Assembly: GCF_005937985.2 (NCBI RefSeq)
Contig: NZ_CP042172.1
Location: 1,302,001 to 1,366,000, forward strand
Length of the DNA: 64,000 nt
Source of the DNA: Arthrobacter sp. KBS0702
GTDB taxonomy: Bacteria > Actinomycetota > Actinomycetes > Actinomycetales > Micrococcaceae
Reading direction: 5' to 3'
Shown: piece by piece, positions 9,513 through 39,745 of the stretch
Layout of the letters: the number at the start of each line of letters is the position of its first letter
Position numbering within the stretch: the stretch's first letter is position 1
Notes under the pieces: model-generated
The model's input: the letters and a program-made list of their open reading frames with translations, nothing else
Told to the model about the DNA's origin: nothing
The model's database searches: none
Made by a program: the position numbers and the translations under genes

Positions 9513-9518
9513 TCTTAT

Positions 9519-10424: not shown

Positions 10425-10442
10425 CGCGCGTCCCCAGAAACA

Positions 10443-10484: not shown

Positions 10485-10529
10485 CCTTTCACCGCTGCGG
10501 CACTGCTGCCGGGGCGGTGGCTTGAGAGA

Positions 10530-10796: not shown

Positions 10797-10824
10797 TTCT
10801 CCTCCTACATATTCGTCGGCATTC

Positions 10825-10852
10825 ACCTTAGGAATCCCGATTATGGCTTCAA
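10825..10852 (-). promoter_or_regulatory. promoter of the GlsB-like gene
   Basis: On the minus strand, -35 TTGAAG (10847-10852), a 16-nt spacer and -10 TAAGGT (10825-10830). The implied leader of about 25 nt contains the AGGAGGAG ribosome site. Confidence 0.55.
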
Positions 10853-11025
10853 GCTAACACACGGCCTCATCCCATGTCAGCAACATCACCCCCAATCGTT
10901 ACGTGCTTCCGGATGCCCCGCCGCGGTGCGGGAGCGGGCCCGGAACGGGTACGGTGTTGCTTGCGGATGCAGGCCCTTCCCGGCGTCCGCGATTCCCTCA
11001 AAAAACCTCCAAAGGAGAAGCTCTC

Positions 11026-11946
11026 TTGGCTGCAAATGGCGGTACCAAGGCGATTGTCGCGGCGCTGGCCGCCAACCTGACGATCGCCGTCCTGAAGTTC
11101 GTCGCGTACATCCTGACGTTCTCCTCATCGATGCTGGCCGAGGCGATCCACTCCCTCGCCGACTCCGGCAACCAGTTGCTGCTCCTGATCGGCGGCAAGC
11201 GCGCCAAGAAGGAAGCAAGCCCCGAGCATCCCTTCGGCTACGGGCGCGAGCGGTACATCTACGCGTTCATCGTCTCGATTGTGCTGTTCAGCGTCGGCGG
11301 CCTCTTTGCCCTCTACGAGGCGTGGGGCAAGCTGCAGCACCCCCACGGCATCGAGGGCGACTTCTGGTGGGTGCCGCTCGCGGTCCTCGTCGGCGCCATC
11401 ATCGCCGAGTCGTTCTCGTTCCGGACGGCAATCATTGAATCCAACCACATCCGCGGCAAGCAGAGCTGGGTGCACTTCATCCGCAACGCCAAGCAGCCCG
11501 AGCTGCCGGTGATCCTGCTGGAGGACTTCGGCGCCCTGCTGGGCCTGGCCTTCGCACTGTTCGGCGTGAGCCTGACGCTGGTCACCGGCAACGGCATCTG
11601 GGACGCGCTGGGCACTGCCATGATCGGTCTGCTGCTGGTGGCGATCGCCGGGGTGCTGGCCGTGGAAACCAAGTCCCTGCTCCTCGGCGAGTCCGCCACG
11701 AAGGCCGACGTCGCGAAGATCCGCGGCGCCATCGAAGCGGACGGCACCCGCATCATCCACCTCAAGACCATGCACCTGGGCCCCGAGGAACTGCTGGTGG
11801 CGGCCAAGATCGGTGTCGGCCACTCCGATACGGGCCGGGCAGTCGCGGCGGCAATCGACGCCGCCGAGACCCGGATCCGGGACGCCGTGCCGACGGCGCG
11901 GGTCATCTACCTGGAGCCGGACCTGGAGCGCGTCAACGCCGGCTAG
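11026..11946 (+). CDS. cation diffusion facilitator (CDF) transporter
   Basis: 306 residues from a TTG start that has AAAGGAG 8 nt upstream; conserved sequence (AANGGTKAIVAALAANLTIA) begins right there. Six membrane segments are visible. The helix 2 metal site has the form SLADSGNQ instead of the more usual HSxxD, and the helix 5 region (NSxxxD in many members) reads LLEDFGALLGLAFAL. A cytoplasmic dimerisation domain follows after about residue 215. It probably exports a divalent cation (Zn, Mn, Fe or Co) against protons; the metal cannot be assigned. It is a monocistronic gene convergent with the MFS gene. Confidence 0.85.
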   Translation: MAANGGTKAIVAALAANLTIAVLKFVAYILTFSSSMLAEAIHSLADSGNQLLLLIGGKRAKKEASPEHPFGYGRERYIYAFIVSIVLFSVGGLFALYEAWGKLQHPHGIEGDFWWVPLAVLVGAIIAESFSFRTAIIESNHIRGKQSWVHFIRNAKQPELPVILLEDFGALLGLAFALFGVSLTLVTGNGIWDALGTAMIGLLLVAIAGVLAVETKSLLLGESATKADVAKIRGAIEADGTRIIHLKTMHLGPEELLVAAKIGVGHSDTGRAVAAAIDAAETRIRDAVPTARVIYLEPDLERVNAG

Positions 11947-11994
11947 GGCCGGGCGTCGCACCGAGGCCGCTGGGCCGGGGCCGCATTTCGCGGG

Positions 11995-13203
11995 CTACCG
12001 GACCAGCGGTCTCTTGCGTTCCACCGCACCGCTGAGCACCGCGACGCCGAGGCCCAGGATGGCCAGCACAGCTCCCACCAGGGCCGGGGCCACGTAGCCC
12101 CAGCCCCACGCGATGACGAGGCCGCCGAGGAACGCGCCCAGGGCGTTGGCCACATTCAGTGCGGCATGGTTCAACGAGGACGCCAGCGACGGCGCATCGG
12201 GGGAGGCATCGAGGAGGCGGGTCTGCAGCGCCGGAACGAGCATGGAACCGGCCGCGCCCACCACGAAGACCATTACGTAGGCGGACCAGGGCCAGTGCAC
12301 GGCCACCGCGTAGACCACGAGCGCCACGGCCACGCCGGGCAGGACCCAGTAGATGGTGCCCATGACCGACCTGTCCGCGATGCGGCCGCCGATGATGTTG
12401 CCGGCCACCATGCCCACACCGTACAGCGCGACGACGAGCGGCAGCCATTGGGCGGGGATGCCGGCCACCGAGGTCATGGTGTGGGCAATGTAGGTGTACG
12501 TGGCGAAGAAACCGCCGAAACCGACAATGCCGATCAGGATGGCCAGCCAGACCTGCAGACGCTTCAGCGCACCGAGTTCGCGCCGAATGCTGGCGTCGGC
12601 ATGCGGTTTCTGGAACGGCACGAACTTCCACAGCATCGCCATCGTGGCAATGCCGATCAGGCCCACGAGCAGGAAGAGCAGGCGCCAGCCGAAGTTCTGG
12701 CCCAGCCAGGTCCCGAACGGCACACCGATCACGTTGGACACGGTCAGGCCGGCCATCACCATCGAGATCGCCCAGCCGCGCCGGGTCGGGGCCACGAGCG
12801 ACGAGGCGATGACCGCGGCAACCCCGAAGAAGGCGCCGTGCGGCAGCCCCGCAGCGAAACGGGACACCAGCATGGTGCCGTAGTCCGGCGCAATGAAGGA
12901 GCTGAGGTTGGCGAGGCTGAAAAACAGCATGAGCCCCAGCGCGAGGTACTTGCGCGGCAGCTTGGCGCCGACCGCGGCCAGCACCGGGGCGCCGACCACC
13001 ACGCCCAGGGCGTAGGCGGAGATCAGGTGCCCGGCCTCCGGGGTGCCGATGCCCAGGCCCTGCTCCACCTCCTTGAGCAGGCCCATCATGGTGAACTCCG
13101 TGGTGCCGATGCCGAACCCGCCCATGGCGAGCGAGATGATGGCGAGGGCGAGGTGGCGGGTGCCGGTTTTGGGCGTCGCGGGGGCGTCTTTAGTGATGGT
13201 CAT
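11995..13203 (-). CDS. MFS transporter, AraJ/drug efflux type
   Basis: 402 residues from the ATG at 13203 (MTITKDAPATPK). It has twelve membrane segments. Family marks are FGIGTTEFTMMGLLKEVEQG in helix 1, GAPVLAAVGAKLPRKY in the loop 2-3 region, and SRFAAGLPHGAFFGVAAV in helix 4. This N-terminal pattern is that of DHA1 carriers such as AraJ and chloramphenicol exporters. The substrate is unknown. It ends at 11995, 49 nt from the convergent CDF gene, and diverges from the Nudix gene. Confidence 0.87.
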   Translation of the reverse strand: MTITKDAPATPKTGTRHLALAIISLAMGGFGIGTTEFTMMGLLKEVEQGLGIGTPEAGHLISAYALGVVVGAPVLAAVGAKLPRKYLALGLMLFFSLANLSSFIAPDYGTMLVSRFAAGLPHGAFFGVAAVIASSLVAPTRRGWAISMVMAGLTVSNVIGVPFGTWLGQNFGWRLLFLLVGLIGIATMAMLWKFVPFQKPHADASIRRELGALKRLQVWLAILIGIVGFGGFFATYTYIAHTMTSVAGIPAQWLPLVVALYGVGMVAGNIIGGRIADRSVMGTIYWVLPGVAVALVVYAVAVHWPWSAYVMVFVVGAAGSMLVPALQTRLLDASPDAPSLASSLNHAALNVANALGAFLGGLVIAWGWGYVAPALVGAVLAILGLGVAVLSGAVERKRPLVR

Positions 13204-13366
13204 CCGTCTGCTTTTCGGTAACAATCCCGGCCGGGGCCGGGAGAATGCGGCGTGGTGGATCGGCTCTTGCTGTCAGTGGGGCAACGCGGGGCGCGGGGCC
13301 TGGTATTCCGGCGCCTGACGTGGTGCGTCCCACCATTGTCCCCCGGCAGCGCCGGCGGCGCGCCCC

Positions 13367-13372
13367 TAGACT
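13367..13372 (+). promoter_or_regulatory. -10 box, leaderless promoter of the Nudix gene
   Basis: TAGACT followed by 7 nt and GTG at 13380. No Shine-Dalgarno sequence lies in the gap. Confidence 0.6.
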
Positions 13373-13379
13373 GGTGGAC

Positions 13380-13823
13380 GTGACTGAACTCATCAGCGTC
13401 GTCGGCGGCGCAGTAGTGGATTCCCTGGCCGCACCCCGGACCCTCCTGGTGGCACGGCGGACGGCGCCGCCCCAGTTCGCGGGCATGTGGGAGTTCCCCG
13501 GCGGCAAGGTGGATCCCGGCGAGGCCCCGGAGCGTGCCCTGCACCGCGAGCTGTACGAGGAACTCGGGGTGGAGGTCCGGCTGGGGCCGGAACTGCCCGC
13601 CGAATCCCCGACGGGCTGGCCGCTCAACGGTAGGGCGGCAATGCGGGTCTGGTTCGCCGAGCTGGCGGCAGGCACCCCCCAGCCATTGGAGGACCACGAC
13701 GAGCTGCGCTGGGTCGCGCTGGCGGACCCGGCGGAGGTACTGGGCCTGCCGTGGATCCCGGCGGACCTTCCGATCGTCGAGGCCCTGCTGGCGGCCGTCG
13801 CGGGCGAGCCCTCGCCAAACTGA
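13380..13823 (+). CDS. MutT-like Nudix hydrolase
   Basis: 147 residues. The Nudix box GX5EX7REUXEEXGU is complete, running from GGKVDPGEAPERA to HRELYEELGV, and is preceded by FAGMWEFPGGK as in 8-oxo-dGTP hydrolases of the MutT group. It ends with PWIPADLPIVEALL, also MutT-like. The likely role is hydrolysis of oxidised nucleotides in the cytoplasm. The GTG start is set by the leaderless -10 box; a longer frame upstream lacks conservation. The transhydrogenase genes start 43 nt downstream. Confidence 0.9.
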   Translation: MTELISVVGGAVVDSLAAPRTLLVARRTAPPQFAGMWEFPGGKVDPGEAPERALHRELYEELGVEVRLGPELPAESPTGWPLNGRAAMRVWFAELAAGTPQPLEDHDELRWVALADPAEVLGLPWIPADLPIVEALLAAVAGEPSPN

Positions 13824-13865
13824 GCTCCGTGTGTCTACGCTGGGCCCAACTGGGAGGAGCTGGGC

Positions 13866-15023
13866 GTGCAGGTCGGGGTCAGACGGGAACAGCGTGCGGG
13901 GGAACGCCGGGTTGCGGCGACACCGGAGACGGTGCGGCAACTGGCGGGCCTCGGCCTGGCGCTGCTGGTGGAATGCGGTGCCGGGCTCGAATCCGGCTAC
14001 GGCGACGCCGACTATGAGGCGGCCGGGGCTGCCCTTGTTCCGCACCTACCGCTCCGGGCGCTGGATGTCCTGCTGCACGTCCGACCGCTCACCCCTGAGA
14101 TCGCCGCCGCTCTGAGGCCGGGCGCCGTTACCATCGGCTTCGGTTCGCCGGCCTCGGAGCTGCCTGCGGTCGGCGCCCTGGCCGCCGCCGGGGTGACGTC
14201 CTTCGCCCTGGAACTCGTTCCCCGGATTTCCCGCGCCCAGTCGATGGACGCCCTCAGCTCCCAGTCCCTCGTCGCCGGCTACCGCGCCGTCCTGGAAGCG
14301 GCCCTGCGGTACCCGCGGTTTTTCCCGCTCTACATGACCGCCGCCGGCACAATCCCGCCGGCCCGCGTGCTGGTCCTGGGCGCCGGCGTCGCGGGCCTGC
14401 AGGCGATCGGCACCGCCAAACGGCTCGGTGCCCGCGTCTCCGCCAACGACATCCGGGCGGCCTCCGCGGACGAGGTCGCGTCGATGGGCGGCACCTTCAT
14501 CAACCTGGACCTCGACACTCGGGCCGCAGACACGTCCGCTGAGGGCACCGGCGGCTACGCCCGGGAACTCGGCGAGGACCGCGCCGCCCGGCAGCGCGCG
14601 CTCTTGGCGCCGCACGTCGCCGCCGCGGACGTGCTCATCACAACGGCGGCGATCCCGGGCAGGGCCGCCCCGTTGCTCGTCACCGCCGACATGGTGGCCG
14701 GCATGCGGGCCGGGTCCGTCGTCGTGGACCTGGCCGCCGAGTCCGGCGGCAACGTCGAGGGCGTCATCGCCGGCCGGGACGTCCTGGTGCCGGTCCCCGG
14801 CGGCGCCGTGACTCTGGTGGGGATGCAGGACGCGGCATCCGCCGTCGCCTCCGACGCGTCCCGCCTCTACGCCAAAAACGTCGCCAACCTGCTCGCCCTG
14901 ATGACCACTGACGGCACGGTGGCACCCGACTTCGACGACGACGTCGTCGCCGGAGCCTGCTTGACCCGCGACGGCGCCGTCCGGCACGCCGGGACGGCCG
15001 CGGCTATGGAGGCGCATAACTAA
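13866..15023 (+). CDS. pntAA: NAD(P) transhydrogenase, alpha subunit part 1
   Basis: 385 residues, the soluble domain I that binds NAD(H). It belongs to the alanine dehydrogenase/PNT fold: N-terminal VRREQRAGERRVAATPETV, catalytic region AQSMDALSSQSLVAGY, Rossmann motif VLVLGAGVAGLQAIGTAKRL, and the mobile-loop region LITTAAIPGRAAPLLVT. The GTG start is preceded by GGAGGAG. It overlaps the next gene by 1 nt (TAATG). The complex couples proton flow to hydride transfer from NADH to NADP at the cell membrane. Confidence 0.93.
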   Translation: MQVGVRREQRAGERRVAATPETVRQLAGLGLALLVECGAGLESGYGDADYEAAGAALVPHLPLRALDVLLHVRPLTPEIAAALRPGAVTIGFGSPASELPAVGALAAAGVTSFALELVPRISRAQSMDALSSQSLVAGYRAVLEAALRYPRFFPLYMTAAGTIPPARVLVLGAGVAGLQAIGTAKRLGARVSANDIRAASADEVASMGGTFINLDLDTRAADTSAEGTGGYARELGEDRAARQRALLAPHVAAADVLITTAAIPGRAAPLLVTADMVAGMRAGSVVVDLAAESGGNVEGVIAGRDVLVPVPGGAVTLVGMQDAASAVASDASRLYAKNVANLLALMTTDGTVAPDFDDDVVAGACLTRDGAVRHAGTAAAMEAHN

Positions 15024-15385
15024 TGGACGCGGTCACGTTACTCACGGTGGTGGTACTCGCCGTTTTCGTCGGCTTTGAAGTCGTCTCCAAGGTCACCAGC
15101 AAGCTGCACACGCCGCTGATGTCCGGGGCCAATGCAATCCACGGGATCATTCTGGTCGGCGCGATCATCGTGGCGGGCCAGGCCGACGACCCCTGGCTGC
15201 TGGCCGTCGCCCTGCTGGCGGTGGCCCTCGCGACCGTCAACCTGGTGGGCGGCTTTGTGGTCACTGACCGGATGCTGGAAATGTTCGGCCCGCGGAAAGC
15301 AGCCGCCGCACACCCGGCGGACGGTGCCGGCACCCCGGCGGGGACGTCGGAAGCCGCCGGTCGGGCGGGGGAGGAGCGCCCGTGA
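15023..15385 (+). CDS. pntAB: NAD(P) transhydrogenase, alpha subunit part 2
   Basis: 120 residues, the small membrane part of domain II with three membrane segments (LLTVVVLAVFVGFEVV; GANAIHGIILVGAIIVAG; WLLAVALLAVALATVNLVGG). VGGFVVTDRMLEMF is a family signature. It ends in a hydrophilic tail rich in Ala, Gly and Pro. The stop codon overlaps the pntB GTG by 4 nt. The split of PntA into two chains is the arrangement of the three-subunit enzymes known from Rhodospirillum and many actinobacteria. Confidence 0.92.
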   Translation: MDAVTLLTVVVLAVFVGFEVVSKVTSKLHTPLMSGANAIHGIILVGAIIVAGQADDPWLLAVALLAVALATVNLVGGFVVTDRMLEMFGPRKAAAAHPADGAGTPAGTSEAAGRAGEERP

Positions 15386-16755
15386 GCATCCTCGCCCCCG
15401 CCTGGACCGCCCTGCTCTACCTCGTGGCGGCCGTGTGCTTCATCCTGGCGCTGAAGGGCCTCAGCTCCCCCCGGACCGCCCGGCGCGGAAACGTCATCGG
15501 AGCAGCCGGTGCCGCGGTGGCCGTCGTAACCGTGTTCCTCTCGGCGCGGCTGGAGAACATCCCGCTGATCCTGGCCGCCATTGCGGTCGGAACCGCCCTC
15601 GCAGTTCCGGTCGCCCGGCGCGTGCAGATGACGCAGATGCCCCAACTGGTTGCCTTGTTCAACGGCGTCGGCGGCGGCGCGGCCGCGCTCGTCGCGGTGC
15701 TGGAACTCGGGCACAGCGGGGATTCCTGGGTCCGGCTGGCAGTCGTCTTCACCATGCTGGTCGGTGCCGTGTCCTTCGCCGGCTCGGCCGTCACGGTCGG
15801 GAAGCTGCAGGAGCTGATCAGCACCCGGCCGCTGTTGTTCCCGGGCATGCCCGCCGTGATGGTGGTCGTGCTGGCCGGCGCGCTCACCGCCGGTGGCTTC
15901 ATTGTGGGGACGGGCTCGCCCGGCTGGGCCGGTGCGTTGCTGGTGCTCGGACTGGCCGCGGGGCTGCTGCTCGTGCTCCCGGTCGGCGGTGCCGACGTCC
16001 CCATCGTGATCTCGCTGCTGAACGCCTTCACCGGCCTCGCCGTCGCGGCGTCCGGGATCGTGCTGGGCAACGTGCTGTTGCTCGTCGCCGGGACGCTCGT
16101 CGGCGCCAGCGGCACCATCCTGACCAAGGTGATGGCCTCCGCGATGGGCCGCGGCGTAGCCGGCATCATGTTCGGCGCCTTCCGGGGCGGGTCCACGGCA
16201 GGCTCGACCACGCTCAGCGACCGGCCGGTGCGCTCATCCTCGCCTGAGGACGTCGCCGTCCAGCTCGGGTATGCCCAGCGCGTCGTGATCGTGCCCGGCT
16301 ACGGCCTGGCCGTCGCGCAGGGCCAGCACACGGTGGCCGAACTGGCGACCGCCCTGACCGCCCGGGGAGTCGACGTCGTCTTCGCCATCCATCCCGTCGC
16401 CGGCCGGATGCCCGGGCACATGAATGTGCTGCTGGCCGAGGCGAACGTGCCCTACGAGTCGCTGCGGGAACTCGAAGAAGTCAATCCGGAGTTCGCGAGC
16501 ACGGATATCGTCCTCGTGGTGGGCGCGAACGACGTCGTCAACCCGGCCGCAAAGACCTCCCCGGGGTCACCGATCTTCGGGATGCCCATCCTGGAGGTGG
16601 TCCAGGCCCAGCAGGTGGTGTTCCTCAAACGCTCGATGCGCCCGGGTTTTGCCGGCATCGAGAATGAGCTGCTGCACGATCCGAAGACCACCCTGTTGTT
16701 TGGCGACGCCAAGGATTCGCTCTCCAAGGTCCTCGGCGCGGTCAAGATCCTCTAG
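15382..16755 (+). CDS. pntB: NAD(P) transhydrogenase, beta subunit
   Basis: 457 residues. The first 260 form the remaining membrane helices of domain II (starting LYLVAAVCFILALKGLSSP). The last 175 are domain III, which binds NADP(H): VIVPGYGLAVAQGQHTVAEL, then FAIHPVAGRMPGHMNVLLAE, LVVGANDVVNPAAKT and FLKRSMRPGFAGIENEL. All key motifs are present. It is the last gene of the group and converges on the radical SAM gene 46 nt downstream. Confidence 0.95.
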   Translation: MSILAPAWTALLYLVAAVCFILALKGLSSPRTARRGNVIGAAGAAVAVVTVFLSARLENIPLILAAIAVGTALAVPVARRVQMTQMPQLVALFNGVGGGAAALVAVLELGHSGDSWVRLAVVFTMLVGAVSFAGSAVTVGKLQELISTRPLLFPGMPAVMVVVLAGALTAGGFIVGTGSPGWAGALLVLGLAAGLLLVLPVGGADVPIVISLLNAFTGLAVAASGIVLGNVLLLVAGTLVGASGTILTKVMASAMGRGVAGIMFGAFRGGSTAGSTTLSDRPVRSSSPEDVAVQLGYAQRVVIVPGYGLAVAQGQHTVAELATALTARGVDVVFAIHPVAGRMPGHMNVLLAEANVPYESLRELEEVNPEFASTDIVLVVGANDVVNPAAKTSPGSPIFGMPILEVVQAQQVVFLKRSMRPGFAGIENELLHDPKTTLLFGDAKDSLSKVLGAVKIL

Positions 16756-26719: not shown

Positions 26720-27541
26720 ATGACGTCGCAGCTGATGGTGCGGTCGGTCCCGCCCTTCCGCGTTCCCGGCGCCGCGGAAGTTCCCGGCGCCACGGGGTCC
26801 CTGGAGGCGGCAGCCCATGGGCTGTTGGACGACGTCGAACTCGGCCGTGCGCGGGCGCTGGAACCCCGTCCGCGGCAGGACTTCCTGGCCGGCCGGCTGG
26901 CGCTGCGGCGCTTTGCGGCGGAACTGCTGGGTGTGCCGGCGGCGGACCTCCGGGCGGCCTATAACTGTCCGCAGTGCGGCCCCGGTAGTCCGCACGGCCG
27001 GCCCGGCTACACGCTGCATGGCGTGCCGGTGCCGCTGCTGCTGAGCCTCTCGCGGAGCGCGGGCTGGGTCCTGCTGGCAGCGGTGCCGGATCCTGCGCCG
27101 GGACTCCGGCTCGGCGTCGACGTGCAGGACCCTGCGGGCACGGACTTTGCCGGCTTCGACGAGCTGGTGCTCGGCCCGGCCGAACGCGCGAGCCTGCGCA
27201 GCCTGGCCGGCGCCGAGCTGTTGGCCGAACGTGCCCGGCTCTGGGCCCGTAAGGAGGCCTGGCTCAAGCTGTGCGGTACCGGGCTGCGGACCGCGCCGGA
27301 CAGCGTGGAGGTGCTTGGGCACCCCGGCATCAGGGACCTGCCGCCCGCCGAATCCGGGCTCCCCGCGCATTTTGCCGCCGCTGTCGCCCTGGCCGGCACC
27401 CCGGACGGCCTCCCACCGGGACAACCGCCGGGACCACCGGCGCGCCAACGGCCGTCAGCGGGGGTCAGCCGGCGGGCAGCGGCGGGAGTGCCTCTTCATA
27501 GAGCCAGGGGTGGAGCACGGCCTCGGCGTCGATCCCGGTGA
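26720..27541 (+). CDS. 4'-phosphopantetheinyl transferase, Sfp type
   Basis: 273 residues. Superfamily motifs are LGVDVQD (about 131-137, magnesium-binding Asp) and WARKEAWLKLCGTGL (about 175-189, catalytic Lys-Glu). The substrate region reads RPGYTLHGVPVPLLLSLSRSAGWVLLA. It attaches the phosphopantetheine arm of CoA to carrier-domain serines. ATG 26720 has AGGAGGG 8 nt upstream. The last 26 codons overlap the convergent M1 gene and read as a Pro/Arg-rich tail without fold, so the functional part may end near residue 235. The Pls-type synthetase 1.4 kb away has a carrier domain that needs this modification. Confidence 0.87.
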   Translation: MTSQLMVRSVPPFRVPGAAEVPGATGSLEAAAHGLLDDVELGRARALEPRPRQDFLAGRLALRRFAAELLGVPAADLRAAYNCPQCGPGSPHGRPGYTLHGVPVPLLLSLSRSAGWVLLAAVPDPAPGLRLGVDVQDPAGTDFAGFDELVLGPAERASLRSLAGAELLAERARLWARKEAWLKLCGTGLRTAPDSVEVLGHPGIRDLPPAESGLPAHFAAAVALAGTPDGLPPGQPPGPPARQRPSAGVSRRAAAGVPLHRARGGARPRRRSR

Positions 27542-28838
27542 CGCGGTGCGCTGCCAGGATAAAGTCCTCCGTCGTGACCGAGCCGTGGCGGCGGCCCCCG
27601 GTCCAGTCGTGCAGCAGTGCGAAGAATGCCAGATCGCCGCAACTGAGGCGGATCGCGTGCAGGGCGAGGGCGCCGCGTTTGTAGACACGGTCGTCGAACA
27701 TCAGTTCCGGCCCGGGATCACCCACCAGCAGGTCCTGGTCCTCCGCCCTGAGCATCCGCCAGGCCGCCCGGGCCCGGTCGGCCACGGTCATGACCCGGGC
27801 CTCCTCGGACCATATCCATTCGGCGTAGCAGGCGAAACCTTCGTGCAGCCAGATATCCCTCCACGAGGCCGCGGTCAGTGAATTCCCGAACCACTGGTGG
27901 GACAGTTCGTGGGCGATCAGCCGCTGCGATTCCCAGTCCTGCCCCAGGTGGTTGCGGCCGAAAATGGACAGGGACTGCGCCTCCAGCGGGATTTCCAGGG
28001 CATCTTCTGTGACCACCACGGTGTAGCCGGCGAAGGGATACGGCCCAAAGCAGCTGGTGAAGGTGCGCATCATCTCCGGCTGGCGGGCGAGCCCGGTGCG
28101 CGCCTCGGCCGAGAGCTCCGCCGGCACCGCTGCCACCTGGGCGACGTCGCCGGCAGGCCGCTCCGGGTTGAGGGGAAGCAGTTCGTACCGGCCGATCTGG
28201 ACCGTGGCGAGGTAGCTTGCCATCGGTTCGGACTGCTCGTAAACCCAGGTTTCGCGGCTGGACCGGGCCTGGTGGGAGACCAGCACACCGTTGCAGACGG
28301 CCCGGTAGTTCGCATCCGTGGTGACCGCGATCCGGTAGCTGGCCTTATCCCGCGGGTGGTCGTTGCAGGGGAACCAGGACGCCGCGCCGTTGGGCTGCCC
28401 GGCGACCAGGACGCCGTCGGTCAGCTCCTCCCAGCCCACCTCCCCCCAGAGCCCGCGGCGCGGGGCCGGATTGCCCTCGTAGCGGATGTCGAGGGTGAAT
28501 TCGTCGCCGGGCAGCAGCGCCGCGTCCGGCACCACAACGAGGCGTTCGGCCCGCTGGGTGAACTTGCGCACTTTCCGGCCCGGCATCAGCACCTTGGTGG
28601 CCCGGAGCCCCGTCAGGTCCAGGACAATCGCCGAGCTCTGGCGCCGCGCGACCGCGTGCAGCGTCGCCCTGCCGGCGAGGTGGTTGCTGTTGATCCGGTA
28701 GTCGAGCTCGAGCTCGTAGCGGGTCACCCGGTAGACCTCGGTGCCGTGGCCGGGCATGTACGGGTCCGGGGCCTCGGCGGGCAGTTCGGGAGGCAATTCA
28801 GCGGGAAATTCCTCGGCGGCTGAAGCGGTTGGACTCAT
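27465..28838 (-). CDS. M1-family zinc metallopeptidase
   Basis: 457 residues. The zinc site HELSHQWFG (His310, Glu311, His314) with Glu333 in WLHEGFACYAEW is complete. The exopeptidase motif usually written GAMEN is replaced by ALEIPLEAQS. The N-terminal domain 1 (about 35-220) is normal, but the length of 457 shows that the C-terminal helical domain of large M1 enzymes is absent. No signal peptide is present. It lies between the PPTase gene (77-nt tail overlap) and the Pls-type synthetase on the synthetase strand, 65 nt downstream of it, probably in one transcript. From memory, an M1-like enzyme degrades epsilon-polylysine in Streptomyces albulus, so a product-cleaving or protective role is inferred. 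Confidence 0.88.
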   Translation of the reverse strand: MSPTASAAEEFPAELPPELPAEAPDPYMPGHGTEVYRVTRYELELDYRINSNHLAGRATLHAVARRQSSAIVLDLTGLRATKVLMPGRKVRKFTQRAERLVVVPDAALLPGDEFTLDIRYEGNPAPRRGLWGEVGWEELTDGVLVAGQPNGAASWFPCNDHPRDKASYRIAVTTDANYRAVCNGVLVSHQARSSRETWVYEQSEPMASYLATVQIGRYELLPLNPERPAGDVAQVAAVPAELSAEARTGLARQPEMMRTFTSCFGPYPFAGYTVVVTEDALEIPLEAQSLSIFGRNHLGQDWESQRLIAHELSHQWFGNSLTAASWRDIWLHEGFACYAEWIWSEEARVMTVADRARAAWRMLRAEDQDLLVGDPGPELMFDDRVYKRGALALHAIRLSCGDLAFFALLHDWTGGRRHGSVTTEDFILAAHRVTGIDAEAVLHPWLYEEALPPLPAG

Positions 28839-28903: not shown

Positions 28904-31900
28904 CTACTTCGGCTTGGGCGCCGGAACGTCCGGGCCGCCCCACGGACTGACCGGATTTCCCATCCAGTAGGTGGCGGCCGGCACCGTTTCACCCCTCATC
29001 ACGAGTGATGCCGGGCCGACCGTGCCACCCTTGCCGATCCGGGCGCGCGGCAGGATCACTCCGTGCGGGCCCATCGTGGCCCCGTCTTCGAGGGTAACAG
29101 TGTCAATGCTCATCACCCGGTCGTGGAACAGATGGGTCTGGACCACGCAGCCGCGGTTGACCGTGGCGCTGCGGCCCAGGGTGACAAGGTCCGCCTCGGG
29201 GAGCCAGTAGCTTTCGCACCACGTTCCGGCTCCGATCTTGGCGCCGAGGGCGCGCAGCCACCACACCAGCGCCGGGGTGCCGGACGCGGCCCGCGCGAAC
29301 CACGGGGCGCTGACCATTTCGATGAAGGTGTCCACCACCTCATTCCGCCAGATGAAGGAGCTCCAGAGCGGGTGCTCGCCGGGGCGGATGCGTCCCACCA
29401 GAAGCCACTTGGCGACGACGGCGCTTCCGGCGGCGACGGCGCCGGCCAGCAGGACCACCATACCGCCCAGCAGCGCCGCCACGGCGTAGTTGAAGGTGCC
29501 GGCCAGCCAGTCGAGGGCCACCAGCACGCCGGCGGCGACGGCGACGGTGAGCACCAGCGGGACAAAGCGGCAGAGCTCCCACAGGGCACGCGCCAGCTTG
29601 AGCCGCCGGGGCGGCTGGAAGGTGCGGGTGTCGTCCGAGGCGATGGCGGTCCGTCGCAGCCGCACCGGCGGGCTGCCCAGCCAGGACGTGCCGGACTTCG
29701 CCTTCGCAGGGGTGGCCGAGAGCACGGCCACGAGGGAGTTCTTGGGGACGTTCCGTCCCGCGGCGGTCATCCCGGAGTTGCCGAGGAAGGAGCGTTTCCC
29801 CACTTTCGCGGGCGCGATCCGCATCCAGCCGCCGCCGAGCTCGTAGGACGCGATCAACGTGTCATCGGCGAGGAAGGCGCCTTCGCCCACGGTCGTCATT
29901 TTCGGGATCAGCAACACCGTGGACGCCTCCACGTTCCTGCCGACCCTGGCCCCGAGCAGCCGCAGCCAGACGGGGGTGAACAGGCTGGCATAGACCGGAA
30001 ACAGCAGGTCGCGGGCCAAGTCGAGGACCCGCTCAGTCGCCCAGACCTGCCAGCCCATCCGGCTGCGCACCCGGTAATAGCCGGCGCGCAGGCCGATCCC
30101 GAGGAGCCGCGTGCTGGCGAGGACCAGCGCCAGGTTTGTGCCGAACCACGCCAAGGCGGCCAGCGGGAGCGACACAGCCAGCTGCGGCAGGGCCTCGGCC
30201 AGTGAGTCCCGGCCCTGGATGAAGCCGAACATCACCAGCGCGGCGGCCGCGGCGGACAGGTAGGGGATCAGGGCCAGCACGGCCGAGGCGGAGGCGAAGC
30301 CGGCAAACCAGAGCCGGCCGATCAGGTGGTGCTCCGGCGGGGCGTCCGGCCAGCCTTGTTTGGCCTTGCCGCGGCGTTCCGCCGGGGACCCGGCCACCAA
30401 GTGACCGGCCTTGACCCGACCGAGGACGGCGGAGCCTGGTTCCACCTGCGCCCCGGCCCCGATGCTCGCACCGGGCATGAGGGTGCTGCGGGCGCCGACG
30501 ACGGCCCCGGCGCCGATGCGGATCGCGCCGATGTGGACAGAGTCGCCGTCGATCCACCAGCCGGACAGATCGACCTCGGGTTCGATGTTGCAGCCGTTGC
30601 CCAGCGACAGCATTCCCGTGACCGGCGGCAGCGAGTGGAGTTGGACGTTGGCGCCAATGGTGGCGCCGAGGGCCCGTGCGTAGTACGGCACCCACGGCGC
30701 GCTGGCCAGGCTGATGGCGCCGGCCAGGTCCTGGATCTGCTCGGCCAGCCACAGGCGCAGGTGCACCTTGCCCGAGCGGGGGTAGCGTCCCTCGGCGACG
30801 TTGCGCAGCAGGAGCCGGGCCGCGGCGACCGAGATCGCCATCCGCCCGGCCGGGCTCACGAACACCAGCCAGGATGCGGCCACCCACCACCAGGACAGCG
30901 TCGGCGCCGCGGTGAAACCGGCCAGGGACGACAGCAGGTTGTTTGCCACCATCAGGTACGTCAGCCAGCGCATGCCGACGAGGATATGCAGCGGAACCCC
31001 CAGCAGCGTCTGGGCCCATTGGGCGCGGCGGGAGGTGGGACGCACGGATCGCTCGCCGGCGGCGGCGGCTCCGCCCTCCGGCAGGGACTGGCGGGCGGCG
31101 TCGATCAAGGCGCCGATCCGGGGTGTCGCGTAGATGTCCGCCACCGTGATCGTCGGGTAGCGCACCCGCAGGGCGGAGACAAGTTGGGCCGCGGCCAGGG
31201 AACCGCCGCCGAAGGCGAAGAAGTCGGCGTCCAGGTCCGCAACGGTCCCGCCCAGCACGGCACTCCACTGTTCGACGATCCAGCGGGCGTCGTCAGGCAG
31301 GTTCAACGGCGCCGACGCGGCGTCCGCGGCCCCTGCGCCGGCCAGCGGCCACGGCAGGGCATGCCGGTCCACCTTGCCGCTGGTTTTGGTCGGCAGGGCG
31401 TCCACGACGGTAAGCAGCGGGATCAGCGGGGCGGGCAGGCTGGAGGCGAGCAGGGCCCGCGCGGCCGCCAGGTCCAGCTCGCGGCCGTCGACCGGGGAGA
31501 GGTAACCGACCAGCACCTGGTTCCCGGCCGCCGTCGTGCGGACCGCCGCCGCCGCGCCGGCGACGTCGGGCAGGGACTGGAGCGCGGCGTCGATCTCGCC
31601 GAGCTCGATCCGGCGGCCGCCGAGTTTGACCTGTTCGTCGGCACGGCCCACGAAGAGCAGGCCCGCCCGTTCGTAGCGGACCAGATCCCCGGAGCGGTAG
31701 GCCCGGGACCAGCCCAGGGCCGGCAGCGGAGCGTATTTTTCCGCGTCCTTGGCCGGATCGAGGTAGCGGGCAAGCCCGACGCCGCCGATGATCAGCTCCC
31801 CGATGCCGCCCTCGGCGACCGGCACCCCGTCGGAGCCGACGACGGCGAGGTCCCAGCCGTCCAGTGGCAGTCCGATCCGGACCGGTCCCGGCCCGCCCAG

Positions 31901-32857
31901 CGGCGCGGCGCAGGCGACGACGGTGGTCTCGGTGGGCCCGTAGGTGTTCCAGACCTCGCGTCCGTCCACGGCGAGGCGCTCGGCAAGTTCGGGCGGGCAG
32001 GCCTCGCCGCCGAAGATCAGCAGCCGGACACTTTCCAGCGACTCGACGGGCCACAGCGCGGCGAGCGTGGGCACCGTGGACACCACCGTGATGCCATGGT
32101 TGATGAGCCACGGGCCGAGGTCCATGCCGGTCCGGACCAAGGCCCGGGGCGCCGGGACCAGGCATGCCCCGTTCCGCCACGCGAGCCACATTTCCTCGCA
32201 GGAGGCGTCGAAGGCGACCGAGAGTCCGGCCAGCACCCGGTCCTGGGGTCCCACCGGCTCGGCCTGCAGGAAGATCCGCGCCTCGGCGTCGACGAACGCG
32301 GCTGCCGAGCTGTGCCGCACCGCGACGCCTTTGGGGGTGCCGGTGGATCCGGAGGTGAAAATGACCCAGGCGTCGTCGGCGGGGACCGGCTGCCTGGCGG
32401 CCGGGAACGGCCGGGGGCGGGCGGTGTCCGCGACGATGGTGCCGCCGGCGCGCATGATTCCGGAGACGCGGGCCTCGCCGAACACCAGTTTGGCGCGCTC
32501 GTCGGGGTCGTCAGCGTCCACCGGAACGTAGGCGGCCCCGACGAACATCACGGCCAGGATGGAGATGTAGAGCTCGTTGGTGCCCGAGGGGATCCGGACG
32601 CCGATCTTGTCGCCGGCGCCGAGCCCGGCGAGGTGCAGCTTCCTCGCGGCGGCACGGACCTCGTCCATCAGCTGGGCATAGCTGAGGGAACGGTGACCGT
32701 CGTCGAGCGCGGAGGCATCCGGGAAGCGGGCGGCGGTGTCCTGCAGGACATCGATCAGCGTCCGTTCCGGCGGTGCAGCGAAGGCACCCGCCAGCTGCGG
32801 CTGGTAGGTGGGGCTGGCCGGGGGAGTGCCGCCGGCGGGCGGTAGCTGCTCGATCAC
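28904..32857 (-). CDS. Pls/PosA-type non-ribosomal peptide synthetase (epsilon-polylysine synthetase-like)
   Basis: 1317 residues, matching the roughly 1320 of Streptomyces Pls. Order of parts: adenylation domain 35-500 (FTSGSTGTPKG at 167-177, YGPTETT, YRSGDLVRY, KTSGKVDR); carrier domain 520-590 with Ser553 in FGGGSLAAAQ; then six membrane helices in pairs (about 617-690, 850-920, 1097-1150), each pair followed by a left-handed beta-helix hexapeptide domain (about 725-830, 965-1050, 1205-1300, for example IRIGAGAVVGARSTLMPGAS). There is no ordinary condensation or thioesterase domain. In Pls this layout polymerises an amino acid through its side-chain amine. Pocket residues, aligned by eye to PheA, are Asp217, Ala218, Glu221, Ser260, Ile281, Gly283, Thr305, Val313, Val314, Lys495. 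The acidic Glu suits lysine or a related diamino acid. The product is inferred, not shown. Confidence 0.9.
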   Translation of the reverse strand: MIEQLPPAGGTPPASPTYQPQLAGAFAAPPERTLIDVLQDTAARFPDASALDDGHRSLSYAQLMDEVRAAARKLHLAGLGAGDKIGVRIPSGTNELYISILAVMFVGAAYVPVDADDPDERAKLVFGEARVSGIMRAGGTIVADTARPRPFPAARQPVPADDAWVIFTSGSTGTPKGVAVRHSSAAAFVDAEARIFLQAEPVGPQDRVLAGLSVAFDASCEEMWLAWRNGACLVPAPRALVRTGMDLGPWLINHGITVVSTVPTLAALWPVESLESVRLLIFGGEACPPELAERLAVDGREVWNTYGPTETTVVACAAPLGGPGPVRIGLPLDGWDLAVVGSDGVPVAEGGIGELIIGGVGLARYLDPAKDAEKYAPLPALGWSRAYRSGDLVRYERAGLLFVGRADEQVKLGGRRIELGEIDAALQSLPDVAGAAAAVRTTAAGNQVLVGYLSPVDGRELDLAAARALLASSLPAPLIPLLTVVDALPTKTSGKVDRHALPWPLAGAGAADAASAPLNLPDDARWIVEQWSAVLGGTVADLDADFFAFGGGSLAAAQLVSALRVRYPTITVADIYATPRIGALIDAARQSLPEGGAAAAGERSVRPTSRRAQWAQTLLGVPLHILVGMRWLTYLMVANNLLSSLAGFTAAPTLSWWWVAASWLVFVSPAGRMAISVAAARLLLRNVAEGRYPRSGKVHLRLWLAEQIQDLAGAISLASAPWVPYYARALGATIGANVQLHSLPPVTGMLSLGNGCNIEPEVDLSGWWIDGDSVHIGAIRIGAGAVVGARSTLMPGASIGAGAQVEPGSAVLGRVKAGHLVAGSPAERRGKAKQGWPDAPPEHHLIGRLWFAGFASASAVLALIPYLSAAAAALVMFGFIQGRDSLAEALPQLAVSLPLAALAWFGTNLALVLASTRLLGIGLRAGYYRVRSRMGWQVWATERVLDLARDLLFPVYASLFTPVWLRLLGARVGRNVEASTVLLIPKMTTVGEGAFLADDTLIASYELGGGWMRIAPAKVGKRSFLGNSGMTAAGRNVPKNSLVAVLSATPAKAKSGTSWLGSPPVRLRRTAIASDDTRTFQPPRRLKLARALWELCRFVPLVLTVAVAAGVLVALDWLAGTFNYAVAALLGGMVVLLAGAVAAGSAVVAKWLLVGRIRPGEHPLWSSFIWRNEVVDTFIEMVSAPWFARAASGTPALVWWLRALGAKIGAGTWCESYWLPEADLVTLGRSATVNRGCVVQTHLFHDRVMSIDTVTLEDGATMGPHGVILPRARIGKGGTVGPASLVMRGETVPAATYWMGNPVSPWGGPDVPAPKPK

Positions 32858-32915
32858 AGCGTGATTCTCCTCGGGGCAGATGAACGGGAGAATTCGGCGT
32901 CGCTCCCGTGCGGGA

Positions 32916-33881
32916 TCAGGGAACCAGGATGACTTTGCCGGTGGTGCGCCGCTGCTCCAGGTCGGTGTGGGCCGTGGCGGCGTCGGCGAGGTCGTAGCGG
33001 GCGCCGATCCGGACCTTGAGGCTGCCGTCCGCCACGGCGGCGAAGAGCTCGTCGGAGCGCCAGCGGCGTTCCTGTGCGTCCTGGAGGAAGTGCGTGATCG
33101 TCGGCCGGGTCAGGTACAGCGAGCCTCCGGCGTTCAAACGTTGCGGGTCGAACGGCGGCACCGGACCCGATGCCGCGCCGAAGAGCACCAGCGTGCCGCG
33201 GATCCGGAGGGCAGCCAGCGATCCGTCGAAGGTGTCCTTCCCGACGCCGTCGTACACCACGTGCGCGCCGGCGCCGCCGGTCAGTTCGCGCACCCTGGCG
33301 GCGAAGCCGTCGTAACGCAGCACGTGGTCGGCGCCGGCTTCGCGGGCCAGCGCTTCCTTCTCGTCGGTGGAGACCGTGGTGATGACGTTCGCGCCCCGGG
33401 CCTTGAGCAGCTGGATCAGGAGCAGGCCGACGCCGCCGGCGCCGGCGTGCAGCAGCACCGTGTGGCCCGGTTCCACCTTGAAGGAGGAGTTGATCAGGTA
33501 GTGCGCGGTGATGCCCTGCAGGGGGAGCGCGGCAGCGGTGAAGTCGTCGACGCCGCGCGGCACCGGCAGCGCCTTGTCCGCGTCCACGAGGGCGTACCCG
33601 GCGTAGCAGTTGACGCCCTCGGCCGTCGCCACCCGGTCACCGGCGGAGAAGCCGGTCACGCCGTCGCCGGTTTCCTCCACGGTTCCGGAGGCCTCGGAAC
33701 CCGGGGTGAAGGGGTACTGCACCTTGTAGACGCCGCTGCGCTTGTAGGTGTCGATGAAGTTCACGCCCACGGCGGCGACCTTGATCAGCAGCTGGCCGGG
33801 GCCCGGAACCGGACGGTCGACTTCTGCCAGTTCGAGGACCTCGGGTCCGCCGGACTGCCGGGCCACAATTGCGTGCGTCAT
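32916..33881 (-). CDS. NADPH:quinone oxidoreductase (zinc-independent MDR family)
   Basis: 321 residues starting MTHAIVARQSGGPEVLELAE. Typical zeta-crystallin/QOR features are AAVGVNFIDTYKRSGVY and PFTPGSEASGTVEETGDGV, the nucleotide-binding motif HAGAGGVGLLLIQLLKARG, and the ending AHTDLEQRRTTGKVILVP. No structural or catalytic zinc cysteines are present. It reduces quinones or enones with NADPH. The ATG follows AGGAGA at good distance. It lies 58 nt upstream of the Pls gene on the same strand and may be co-transcribed by chance; a metabolic link is not evident. Confidence 0.92.
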   Translation of the reverse strand: MTHAIVARQSGGPEVLELAEVDRPVPGPGQLLIKVAAVGVNFIDTYKRSGVYKVQYPFTPGSEASGTVEETGDGVTGFSAGDRVATAEGVNCYAGYALVDADKALPVPRGVDDFTAAALPLQGITAHYLINSSFKVEPGHTVLLHAGAGGVGLLLIQLLKARGANVITTVSTDEKEALAREAGADHVLRYDGFAARVRELTGGAGAHVVYDGVGKDTFDGSLAALRIRGTLVLFGAASGPVPPFDPQRLNAGGSLYLTRPTITHFLQDAQERRWRSDELFAAVADGSLKVRIGARYDLADAATAHTDLEQRRTTGKVILVP

Positions 33882-34022
33882 GTGTCTCCTTCTGAAGTGC
33901 AGCGCTGCGATTCATCAGCGCACCGAATTATCAGCGCACCGGGGGAGAAGGGTTTCTCGGCCCGGATCCTGAGACCATCCTAGGGACAGGGCCGCGCCGG
34001 GCGAAGCATGCCCGGCCGGAGG

Positions 34023-35126
34023 CTAGTAACGGCGGGTAACGGTGGCCATCGGGCATTCGAAGTGGCGGCCCGCGGCGAGGCCGACGTCGTTGAGGTAGCG
34101 CACGATGATGCCGTAGGACTGAAGCAGCGTGGTTTCGGTATACGGGACCTGGTGCTTGGCGCAGAACTCGCGAACGATCACTGCCGCCTTGTCCAGCTGC
34201 GGGCGCGCCATGTCCGGGAAGAGGTGATGCTCGGCCTGGCGGTTGAGGCCACCGAGCAGGATGTCCATAAAGCGGCCGCCGGAGATGTTTCGCGAGGTCA
34301 GGACCTGGCGGCTGAAGAAGTCCACCCGGCTGTCTGCAGGCAGCACCGGCATGCCCTTGTGGTTTGGTGCGAAGGAGGCGCCCATGTAGAAGCCGAAGAC
34401 GGCGAGTTGCACACCGATGAAGGCAAACGCCATGCCCAAGGGCAGGAACGTGAAGGCGAGGACCGGCAGCACGCTCAGGCGGGCCACCAGGATGGGGATC
34501 TCCACCCAGCGGTGCGTGACCTTGGCGCGCTGGAAGATGAACTTGACCGAATCGATCTGCAGGCCAAGGCCGACCAGGAACAGCAGCGGGAAGAAGAACC
34601 AGCCCTGCTTGCGGGTCAGGAAGGAGAACCGCCCCTGCCGGGTTGCGGCGGCTTCCGGGAAGAAGGCGATCGCGCCGGTGGCGATGTCCGGGTCCTTGGA
34701 GATGACGTTGGGGTGGTTGTGGTGCGCGCCGTGCTTTTGCTCCCACCAGGAGTAGCTGATGCCGGCCACGGAGGTGGCGAGCAGCCGCGCGGCCCAGTCG
34801 TTGGCGCGGCGCGAGGCGAAGATCTGCCGGTGCCCGGCCTCGTGGGCCAGGAAGCTCAGCTGGGTGCAGAGAATGCCCAGGGCGGCGGCGATAAGGAGCT
34901 GGAACCAGCTGTCACCGATCAGGGCGAACCCGAACCAGGTGGCGGTCATCAGCAGGACCAAAACGGAAAACACCGTGAGGTAGAACCCGGTGCGGCGTTC
35001 CAGCAGGCCTTCGGCCTTGACGCGCTTCAGCAGCTCGGAATAGCTCAGGACGACGGTGTTCGGTTGCCGGACCCGCGGCTGCGGGCGCGCCGGTTTTTCG
35101 GCGGAAAGTGTGGTGGTGGGGGTCAT
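34023..35126 (-). CDS. membrane fatty-acid (acyl) desaturase
   Basis: 367 residues from the second ATG (35126); GAGG lies 10 nt before it, while it sits too close to the first ATG (35135). The three histidine boxes of di-iron desaturases are present: HEAGH (about 95-99), HGAHH (about 132-136) and NRQAEHHLFP near residue 300. Four or more membrane helices are seen. The arrangement resembles the linoleoyl-CoA/front-end type desaturases of actinobacteria. It introduces a double bond into acyl chains of membrane lipids. The upstream region contains two inverted repeats (35140-35180) that could bind a regulator. Confidence 0.92.
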   Translation of the reverse strand: MTPTTTLSAEKPARPQPRVRQPNTVVLSYSELLKRVKAEGLLERRTGFYLTVFSVLVLLMTATWFGFALIGDSWFQLLIAAALGILCTQLSFLAHEAGHRQIFASRRANDWAARLLATSVAGISYSWWEQKHGAHHNHPNVISKDPDIATGAIAFFPEAAATRQGRFSFLTRKQGWFFFPLLFLVGLGLQIDSVKFIFQRAKVTHRWVEIPILVARLSVLPVLAFTFLPLGMAFAFIGVQLAVFGFYMGASFAPNHKGMPVLPADSRVDFFSRQVLTSRNISGGRFMDILLGGLNRQAEHHLFPDMARPQLDKAAVIVREFCAKHQVPYTETTLLQSYGIIVRYLNDVGLAAGRHFECPMATVTRRY

Positions 35127-35139
35127 GGAACGCATGCCT

Positions 35140-35152
35140 CGTAACTGTTACG
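35140..35152. promoter_or_regulatory. 13-bp palindrome before the desaturase gene
   Basis: CGTAAC-T-GTTACG lies 13 nt upstream of the ATG at 35126 and overlaps the ribosome-binding area, so a bound protein or the RNA hairpin could block expression. Confidence 0.5.
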
Positions 35153-35288: not shown

Positions 35289-37504
<2,216 letters not shown>

Positions 37505-37544
37505 GCCGGCCCGGGAGGGACAAACAACAGTTGGGACGAACAGC

Positions 37545-38474
37545 ATGAACACGCAGACCCGCGAAACCACCTCCATGGCAGATGCCCGGGGCAAGGCCGG
37601 CACCCTGATCGAGGCGCTGCCCTGGATCCAGCGCTTCGCCGGGACCACCATGGTGATCAAGTATGGCGGCAACGCCATGGTCAACGACGAGCTCCGCCGC
37701 GCCTTCGCCGAGGACGTCGTCTTCCTGCACCACGTTGGCATCCACCCGGTCGTGGTGCACGGCGGCGGTCCGCAGATCAACGCCATGCTCAGCAGGCTCG
37801 GCATCGAATCCGAGTTCAAGGGCGGCCTGCGCGTCACCACGCCCGAAGCGATGGACGTGGTCCGCATGGTCCTTACCGGCCAGGTGGGCCGCGAACTGGT
37901 AGGCCTGATCAACTCGCACGGCCCCTACGCCGTCGGCATGTCCGGCGAGGACGGCGGGCTGCTGCGCGCGGTCCGGACCGGCACCGTGGTCGACGGTGAA
38001 GAAGTGGACCTGGGCCTCGTCGGCGAAGTCGTCGGCGTGAACCCCGAAGGCATCCTGGACATCATCGCGGCCGGCCGGATCCCGGTGATCTCGACCGTCG
38101 CGCCGGAAATCCACGACGACGGCTCCACCACCGGCCAGGTGCTCAACGTCAACGCGGACACTGCCGCCGCCGCCGTCGCGTCCGCCCTGGGCGCCTCCAA
38201 ACTGGTTATCCTGACCGACGTCGAAGGCCTCTACGCCAACTGGCCGGACCGCTCCTCGCTGATCTCCTCCCTGACGGCCTCGGAGCTGCGCGAGATGCTA
38301 CCCCGGCTGGAGTCGGGCATGATCCCGAAAATGGCGGCCTGCCTGAAAGCCATCGACGACGGCGTTGAACGCGCGCACATCGTGGACGGCCGCCTGCCGC
38401 ACTCAATGCTGCTGGAAACCTTCACGACCGCCGGCATCGGCACCCAGGTCGTCCCGGATGAGGAAAGCAAATGA
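37545..38474 (+). CDS. argB: acetylglutamate kinase
   Basis: 309 residues of the amino-acid kinase family. The glycine-rich motifs are [11 protein letters not shown] and [18 protein letters not shown]. The Arg-sensitive type N-terminal helix is seen in [20 protein letters not shown], which suggests feedback inhibition by arginine. The ATG lies 41 nt after argJ. The stop codon overlaps argD by 4 nt. Confidence 0.97.
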
Positions 38475-39745
38475 ACCAGATTGAAACTGCACCATCCACG
38501 GACCTCGACCACTCCCCGGTCGGCGAGCTCGTCGCTTCGCACGCCACCGGCGCGCAGTGGCTGTCCCGCTATTCCTCGGCGCTGCTCGGCGTATTCGGCA
38601 CCCCGCAGCGGGTCCTGGTGCGCGGCGCCGGATGCCTGGTCTGGGACGCCGACGGCAAGGAGTACCTGGACCTGCTCGGCGGGATCGCAGTGAACGCGCT
38701 CGGCCACGCACACCCGTTCGTCACCTCCGTGATCTCCAGCCAGCTCGCCACCCTGGGCCACGTCTCCAACTTCTTCACCAGCCCCACGCAGGTGGCCCTC
38801 GCCGAGAAGCTGCTGGAGATCAGCAAAGCGCCGGCCGGGTCCAAGGTGTTCTTCGCCAACTCCGGCACCGAGGCCGTCGAGGCGGCCTTCAAGCTGGCCC
38901 GGCGGAACGCCGGCTCGCCGGACGCGCCGCGCACTAAAATCATCGCCCTCGAGGGCGCCTTCCACGGCCGCACCATGGGCGCCCTGGCGCTGACCGCCAA
39001 GGAGGCCTACCGGGCACCGTTCGCGCCGTTGCCCGGCGGCGTCGTGCACGTGCCGTTCGGCGACATCGAGGCCCTGCGCGCCGCGATCGACGACACCACC
39101 GCCGCCGTCTTCCTCGAACCGATCCAGGGCGAAGCGGGCGTCCGCCCGCTGCCCGCCGGTTACCTGCTGGCGGCCCGCGAGGCCACTACCGCGGCCGGCG
39201 CGCTGCTGATCCTGGACGAGGTCCAGACCGGCATCGGACGTACCGGCAAGTGGCTGGCCAGTGAGGACGCCGGGATCGTCCCCGACGCGGTGACCCTTGC
39301 CAAGGGCCTCGGCGGCGGTTTCCCGATCGGCGCACTGCTCACCTTCGGCCCGGAGGTGTCCGCCCTGCTGTCCGCCGGCCAGCACGGGACGACCTTTGGC
39401 GGAAACCCGGTGGCCACCGCGGCGGCCCTGGCCACCCTGCACGTGCTGGAAAGCCAGCAGGTGCTGGCCCACGTCCGGAAGGTGGGGGAGCACCTGCGCT
39501 CCGGCCTCGCCGCGATCGACGGCGTCACCGAGGTCCGCGGCGAAGGACTGCTGATCGGTTTCGACCTCGACGCCGACGTCGCCCCCGCGGTCGTCACCGC
39601 GGGGCTCGACGCCGGGTTCATCGTCAACAGCCCCGGACCGCACACCATCCGGCTCGCGCCGCCGCTGATCCTTTCCAAGGAGCAGGCCGACCGCTTCCTC
39701 GCCGCGCTGCCCGCTCTCCTCCAGACCGCAAAGGACGCCCAGTGA
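38471..39745 (+). CDS. argD: acetylornithine aminotransferase
   Basis: 424 residues, a class III PLP aminotransferase. Motifs are [51 protein letters not shown] and [16 protein letters not shown], which holds the PLP Lys. It converts N-acetylglutamate semialdehyde to N-acetylornithine. It starts in the ATGA overlap with argB and its stop overlaps the argF GTG. Confidence 0.97.

Follow-up and report, generated by a model that had tools for sequence, protein, structure and literature searches.

The 64,000 nucleotide (nt) stretch of the Arthrobacter sp. KBS0702 genome analysed here (contig NZ_CP042172.1, positions 1,302,001 to 1,366,000; hereafter the window) carries on its minus strand, at 28904..32857, a gene designated pls1 that encodes a synthetase of the Pls/PosA family. 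The gene is complete, reading from a GTG start at 32857 to a stop at 28904 and specifying 1317 amino acids (aa), and a GAGGAG ribosome-binding sequence (32867..32872, minus strand), read from the sequence, lies 9 nt ahead of the GTG. The frame is genuine, since its GC content by codon position (0.71/0.54/0.91) is that of the housekeeping neighbours pheT (0.74/0.47/0.91) and argC (0.71/0.52/0.89). The protein scores 692.2 bits against TIGR02353, the NCBIfam model of the Pls/PosA family (cut-off 423.1), with an E value of 7.4e-208 that puts the match beyond chance. Together with the Pfam matches and the tree described below, this identifies the product as a full-length Pls/PosA-family synthetase; Streptomyces Pls is 1319 aa long.

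At an E value of 0.001 the Pfam matches are limited to AMP-binding (residues 39-364), PP-binding (525-587) and a single Hexapep match (779-811), and no condensation or thioesterase domain was found. The adenylation (A) domain, delimited by its match to the solved structure 7WEW and by its specificity code, DAESIGTVVK (with D217, A218 and E221), spans approximately residues 39-505 (31343..32743, minus strand), and is followed by a carrier (T) domain at residues 525-587 (31097..31285, minus strand; PF00550, E 5e-9) whose Ser553 is placed by its position in a GGGS motif. The remainder, residues 590-1317 (28907..31090, minus strand), forms a membrane half of three modules, C1, C2 and C3. An AlphaFold model of this half (pLDDT 92.5, pTM 0.92) consists of three copies of one unit that combines a pair of long helices with a beta-helix, and Foldseek and VIA-align find it to resemble hexapeptide acyltransferases. 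Of the nine local hydropathy maxima above 1.0 in the C-terminal half, six (619-637, 659-677, 859-877, 895-913, 1098-1116 and 1125-1143) coincide with the three long-helix pairs; another, at 951-969, equals the first pair in height (1.41, against 1.42 and 1.43), yet sits on short helices of the model. The layout, with helices and beta-helices as judged from hydropathy and the model, is thus A-T followed by six membrane helices, arranged pairwise, and three beta-helix modules. A sequence-only reading had described this frame, its A domain and single carrier domain with Ser553, the paired helices and three beta-helix domains, and the lack of classical condensation and thioesterase domains, and each of these points was borne out, with the proviso of the seventh maximum at 951-969.

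The closest solved relative of the A domain is 7WEW, the epsilon-poly-L-lysine synthase of S. albulus (E 5e-193 over residues 12-507, 66% identity), and all ten specificity residues are shared by the two; the domain order is also that of S. albulus Pls (Jiang et al. 2021, PMC8117764). The pocket letters given by the sequence-only reading were correct when re-derived. Code position 2 has been described as a size gate, with Ala denoting lysine, Met ornithine and Phe diaminopropionate or diaminobutyrate (PMC10522769); pls1 has Ala218, and thus neither the Met that marks the ornithine enzyme PosA nor the Phe that marks poly-diaminobutyrate and poly-diaminopropionate synthetases. The code DAESIGTVVK is found in all 112 unique Pls1-group proteins, the window's included.

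The gene directly after pls1 points the same way. An M1 metallopeptidase of 457 aa and PldII type (27465..28838, minus strand; PF01433 and PF17900, with HELSH at 310) lies 65 nt downstream on the same strand, a position from which an operon is predicted. Streptomyces pls shares an operon with pldII, the gene of a polylysine-degrading peptidase, and this pairing separates Pls from three other synthetases (PMC8117764); PldII is one of two polylysine-degrading enzymes (PMC8506220). The M1 frame after pls in a Streptomyces relative (L033) matches the window peptidase at 362 bits. We counted neighbours at loci of unique proteins for which 300 nt or more of downstream sequence was available (111 of 112 pls1, 29 of 29 pls2 and 11 of 11 with the DFE-type code introduced below), and found an M1 gene on the same strand, no more than 800 nt downstream, at 106 of 111 Pls1-type loci (34/34 in the genus and family set, 72/77 in others) and at none of the 29 pls2 or 11 DFE-code loci. 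The five Pls1 loci lacking this follower are those of two Kitasatospora, Corynebacterium curieae and Amycolatopsis orientalis, and a split gene (L110); at five pls2 loci a same-strand M1 gene lies 3.3-3.8 kb downstream.

The tree, a quick IQ-TREE run on 54 chosen rows from which PosA, the beta-lysine synthetase and the C. variabile Pls are absent, places the pls1 protein with those of Arthrobacter and Pseudarthrobacter (support 99-100), inside a Pls clade of 29 rows (support 92) that also holds Streptomyces, Kitasatospora, Nocardia, Rhodococcus and others; its member L033 has an A domain 92% identical to 7WEW. The larger Lys-type clade has a support of 100. Proteins of the pls2 type, named for a second synthetase in the same genome, form their own clade (17 rows, support 99), and eight enzymes with a DFE code form a separate third group (support 100), which was also the chosen outgroup; the program flags long branches in this group and odd letter composition in 12 rows.

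From these comparisons pls1 very probably encodes an epsilon-poly-L-lysine synthetase. What is observed is the family, the pocket, the modelled fold, the clade, the gene neighbour and the invariant histidine discussed below; we infer lysine activation, epsilon linkage, export and the role of the peptidase from characterised relatives. Because its pocket is letter-identical to that of 7WEW and its neighbour is a Pls-type M1 peptidase, lysine is the best-supported monomer. The earlier proposal of a Pls-like enzyme with a cationic substrate is supported by this, and by two of the checks it suggested, a reading of the code, which agrees with 7WEW, and a phylogeny, which sets the enzyme apart from the DFE-code enzymes; the monomer, which it had left open, can now be named as most likely lysine.

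Several observations weigh against this assignment. Two peptides, ASCEEMW and GAAYVPVD, served to select the 80 named loci. The former fixes code positions 2 and 3, and this pre-selection means that the code is tested independently only by loci fetched through the terminal-domain model; the 34 Pls1 proteins of the genus and family set, the window's included, were mostly found by that model and form the fairer test. The terminal half of the pls1 protein shares only 47% identity with its L033 counterpart, so that the linkage and the chain length are assigned by homology. C. variabile, in spite of a proven pls, gave no detectable epsilon-poly-L-lysine under test (PMC8117764), and the Arthrobacter strain may therefore be silent too. 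Finally, a run of arginine (ornithine) genes that includes argC and argJ starts approximately 175 nt past the desaturase gene upstream of pls1, on the opposite strand.

The last of these bears on whether the enzyme polymerises another diamino acid, be it ornithine, beta-lysine, diaminobutyrate or diaminopropionate. Specificity codes are degenerate, PosA activates lysine weakly besides ornithine (PMC10522769), close family members make polymers of other diamino acids, and part of the pathway encoded by the nearby genes at 35310-39745 (argC, an ArgJ match, an amino acid kinase and a class III aminotransferase) yields ornithine. We nonetheless regard this as most improbable: the pocket is that of 7WEW, and neither the Met of ornithine enzymes, the Phe of diaminopropionate and diaminobutyrate enzymes nor the beta-lysine code DGESISVVNK (PMC10522769) is present; the arg genes are divergent and lie past both the dehydrogenase and the desaturase genes, with the kinase and aminotransferase belonging to their run; and among the genes between the phosphopantetheinyl transferase and the desaturase there is no match to the dat, sbnA/B or aspartate kinase families. 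PosA shares the family and the pocket residues D217 and E221 with the pls1 enzyme, but has Met at code position 2 where pls1 has Ala, and is encoded in a single-gene operon (PMC10522769). Code and neighbours thus make ornithine, diaminobutyrate or diaminopropionate, and beta-lysine less likely as monomers.

Synthetases with the code DFECLSVVTK, which occur in some genomes of the genus, provide a useful contrast. In the L117 region (8522-15675) the synthetase gene has as neighbours a diaminobutyrate-2-oxoglutarate transaminase that scores above the TIGR00709 cut-off and, identified by model, an aspartate kinase, and in the L119 region (3029-10203) an EctB-type transaminase and an aspartate kinase recognized by eye; dat and ask are among the genes drawn in the synthetase-context figure of PMC8117764. 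Both are likely to be poly-diaminobutyrate loci. The code also occurs at L003, L004, L116, L118 and L139. At L117 and L119, the two loci whose neighbours were examined, code and neighbours agree, and this strengthens the lysine call for pls1. The poly-diaminobutyrate and poly-diaminopropionate synthetases, as assigned by code and neighbours only, share family and domain order with the pls1 enzyme and differ in their DFE-start code, in the dat neighbours of L117 and L119 and in forming a separate clade. Other family members were met in passing. A synthetase of Kocuria dechangensis (L182:4495-11096) has the code DFEPQSAVSK and lies by genes similar to diaminopropionate ammonia-lyase and HGSNAT. 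Synthetases of approximately 1040 aa with carrier domains and a TIGR02353 half, without an A domain, occur at L122:7335-17398 (G060) and at L120 and L121 (G088); the first has three carrier matches and SbnA, SbnB, a separate A-T protein and LuxE as neighbours. Among the matches of the family search, open frames of approximately 1050-1130 aa are recurrent.

Further genes surround pls1. Convergent with the peptidase gene is that of a 273-aa 4'-phosphopantetheinyl transferase of Sfp size (26720..27541, plus strand; PF01648); the genome has two ACPS-family matches, this one and a 118-aa frame, and the former is thus its only Sfp-size phosphopantetheinyl transferase. Upstream of pls1 are a zinc-binding dehydrogenase (32916..33881, minus strand; PF00107/PF08240), which also adjoins pls at L114, L115, L103 and L079, and a fatty acid desaturase (34023..35135, minus strand; PF00487), found in the same place at L114, L115 and L103. 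The plus-strand frames at 32880-33983 and 34008-35144 were rejected as genes, as their GC content by codon position misfits and the opposite frames match the dehydrogenase and desaturase. The dehydrogenase and desaturase upstream and the transferase nearby distinguish the locus from that of S. albulus Pls. In a comparison of flanks across 11 loci, some of them with short flanks, the full order pheS-pheT-phosphopantetheinyl transferase-M1-pls-dehydrogenase-desaturase-argC is kept at L114 and L103, L079 (Kocuria dechangensis) has the pheS-to-argC order minus the desaturase, and L115 has the M1-to-argC half only. At L051, argC and the dehydrogenase gene lie approximately 6.5 kb away from pls, and at six of the 11 loci, including some of those with short flanks (L055, L126, L127, L107, L091 and L195), no pheS, pheT or argC was found; L126 and L127 come from genomes holding another TIGR02353-family gene. 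With its place common to several relatives, though not to all, recent gain of pls1 as part of a movable cluster is not favoured.

How the membrane half may join lysines is suggested by conservation across 171 rows (154 lysine-code, 13 DFE and four other, of which one is a cut row and three lack an A domain), in which cut and near-identical copies are included. The only C-half histidine kept in every lettered row is His1242 of C3 (codon 29132..29134, minus strand; 170 of 170 non-gap rows); Gln1240 and Glu1221 are likewise kept in 170/170 and Asp1246 in 168/171, and His699 (154/171) and His1245 (151/170) are restricted to lysine-code proteins. When profiles of C1, C2 and C3 were compared with E. 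coli LacA, both programs set His1242 of C3 on LacA His115, which we take to be the catalytic base; the equivalent position is occupied by an aromatic residue in C1, and in C2 it falls on a gap or on a residue other than histidine. Since only C3 keeps an invariant histidine aligned with LacA His115, it is likely to be the bond-forming site; we infer that C3 forms the amide bond and that C1 and C2 complete a threefold scaffold, with catalysis by His1242 being a prediction of the present analysis. The beta-helix fold is that of hexapeptide acetyltransferases such as LacA and maltose acetyltransferase, and PosA C1-C3 have been modelled as three packed left-handed beta-helices, in agreement with the pls1 model; no single-site C3 proposal was found in the literature searched on PosA (excerpts of PMC10522769). 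The pls1 protein differs from LacA-type enzymes in being membrane-anchored, in having three modules per chain with the histidine only in the third, and in its donor, which would be a carrier thioester rather than acetyl-CoA. In the proposed sequence of events, the neighbouring phosphopantetheinyl transferase would arm Ser553, the A domain would adenylate L-lysine and load the carrier, and the three membrane-anchored beta-helix modules, acting as one acyltransferase-like unit, would couple the lysyl thioester with the epsilon-amine of the growing chain, His1242 of C3 probably serving as the base. The polymer chain would then leave the cell, and the M1 peptidase may clip it in self-protection.

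Whether such a polymer would be released is a separate matter, and it might instead be a lysine oligomer retained within the cell envelope or at its surface, or further modified, rather than a secreted antimicrobial homopolymer. The family is widespread in the genus (85/101 genomes), and pls1 is set among housekeeping genes, in several relatives at the same place, as antibiotic genes usually are not. Among the flanking pls1 genes searched no exporter was found, and no producer from the genus in the literature searched. Streptomyces and C. variabile Pls, on the other hand, yield free epsilon-poly-L-lysine (PMC8117764), the M1 peptidase partner suggests an encounter with free polymer, and the HGSNAT-like gene typical after pls2 is absent after pls1 (0/111 within 1500 nt). 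On balance we think a retained or modified product of pls1 very unlikely, and favour a released epsilon-poly-L-lysine.

The second synthetase gene, pls2, lies outside the window (C1:3375769-3379890, with its downstream region at L113:7769-14171) and is of lysine type, with the code DAESIGTVIK; relative to pls1 its A domain is 64% and its terminal half 40% identical. A dapA gene, one of three in the genome, starts 3 nt past its stop codon (TIGR00674, 258 bits, cut-off 206), and is followed by a gene for an HGSNAT_cat membrane protein (PF07786). This private lysine-pathway gene supports lysine as the pls2 monomer, and the acyltransferase-like partner suggests, as a speculation, a modified or anchored product. 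The cassette is recurrent in Micrococcaceae: among unique pls2 loci with flanks, dapA lies within 800 nt in 21 of 29 and an HGSNAT-like gene within 1500 nt in all 29. Codes read for 21 pls2 proteins are DAESIGTVIK (18) and DAESIGTVVK (3). At 56% identity or above, pls2-type matches comprise 42 rows in 41 of the 295 genomes of the family search, the next match being at 50%, and flanks were fetched for part of these rows. In one genome (L195:6104-15459, G322) pls1 and pls2 are divergent and approximately 1.3 kb apart. We tentatively propose, while judging it somewhat short of probable, that the genome encodes two separate lysine-polymer pathways: pls1 with its peptidase, and pls2 with its own lysine supply through dapA and an HGSNAT-like acyltransferase that would cap, N-acylate or anchor the polymer, giving a modified polylysine of a kind not found in the literature searched; both enzymes would form bonds at the one surviving C3 histidine site of a single-chain, pseudo-threefold beta-helix unit.

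The occurrence of pls1, which the sequence-only reading had thought notable for a soil member of the Micrococcaceae, is ordinary, a known kind of enzyme in a known place, because the TIGR02353 terminal-domain family is present above cut-off in 85 of the 101 genomes of the genus, and Pls homologues had already been listed from Arthrobacter, Glutamicibacter and Micrococcus in 2021 (Jiang et al. 2021, PMC8117764). In a wider family sample the family is present in 57 of 100 genomes and, at E 1e-50, in 21 of 32 genera; these counts also take in pls2-type and DFE-code enzymes and proteins that lack an A domain. The best 120 relatives of the pls1 protein are 78-93% identical to it, many are already annotated as Pls/PosA, and the named ones are from Arthrobacter, Pseudarthrobacter, Paenarthrobacter or near kin. 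A NAPAA cluster has been reported in Pseudarthrobacter (PMC12025171), and existing publications mention NAPAA, Arthrobacter and antiSMASH together. C. variabile Pls, which yielded epsilon-poly-L-lysine in S. coelicolor, and its coryneform homologues share, as judged from their description, the architecture and peptidase neighbour of pls1 (Jiang et al. 2021, PMC8117764). In the same study C. glutamicum MB001(DE3) as expression host gave no detectable polymer; the C. glutamicum control genome used here itself scores over the TIGR02353 cut-off.

The pls2 cassette and the single C3 histidine are fresher leads than the occurrence of pls1 itself. The family is near core in the genus, and pls1 is set among housekeeping genes together with a peptidase and the only Sfp-size phosphopantetheinyl transferase, which speaks for a function in the physiology of the cell and not just in occasional antibiosis. 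The single conserved histidine turns the matter of which C module forms the bond into a point-mutation question, and the pls2 cassette opens that of which modified polylysines exist, which may be addressed by knock-out.

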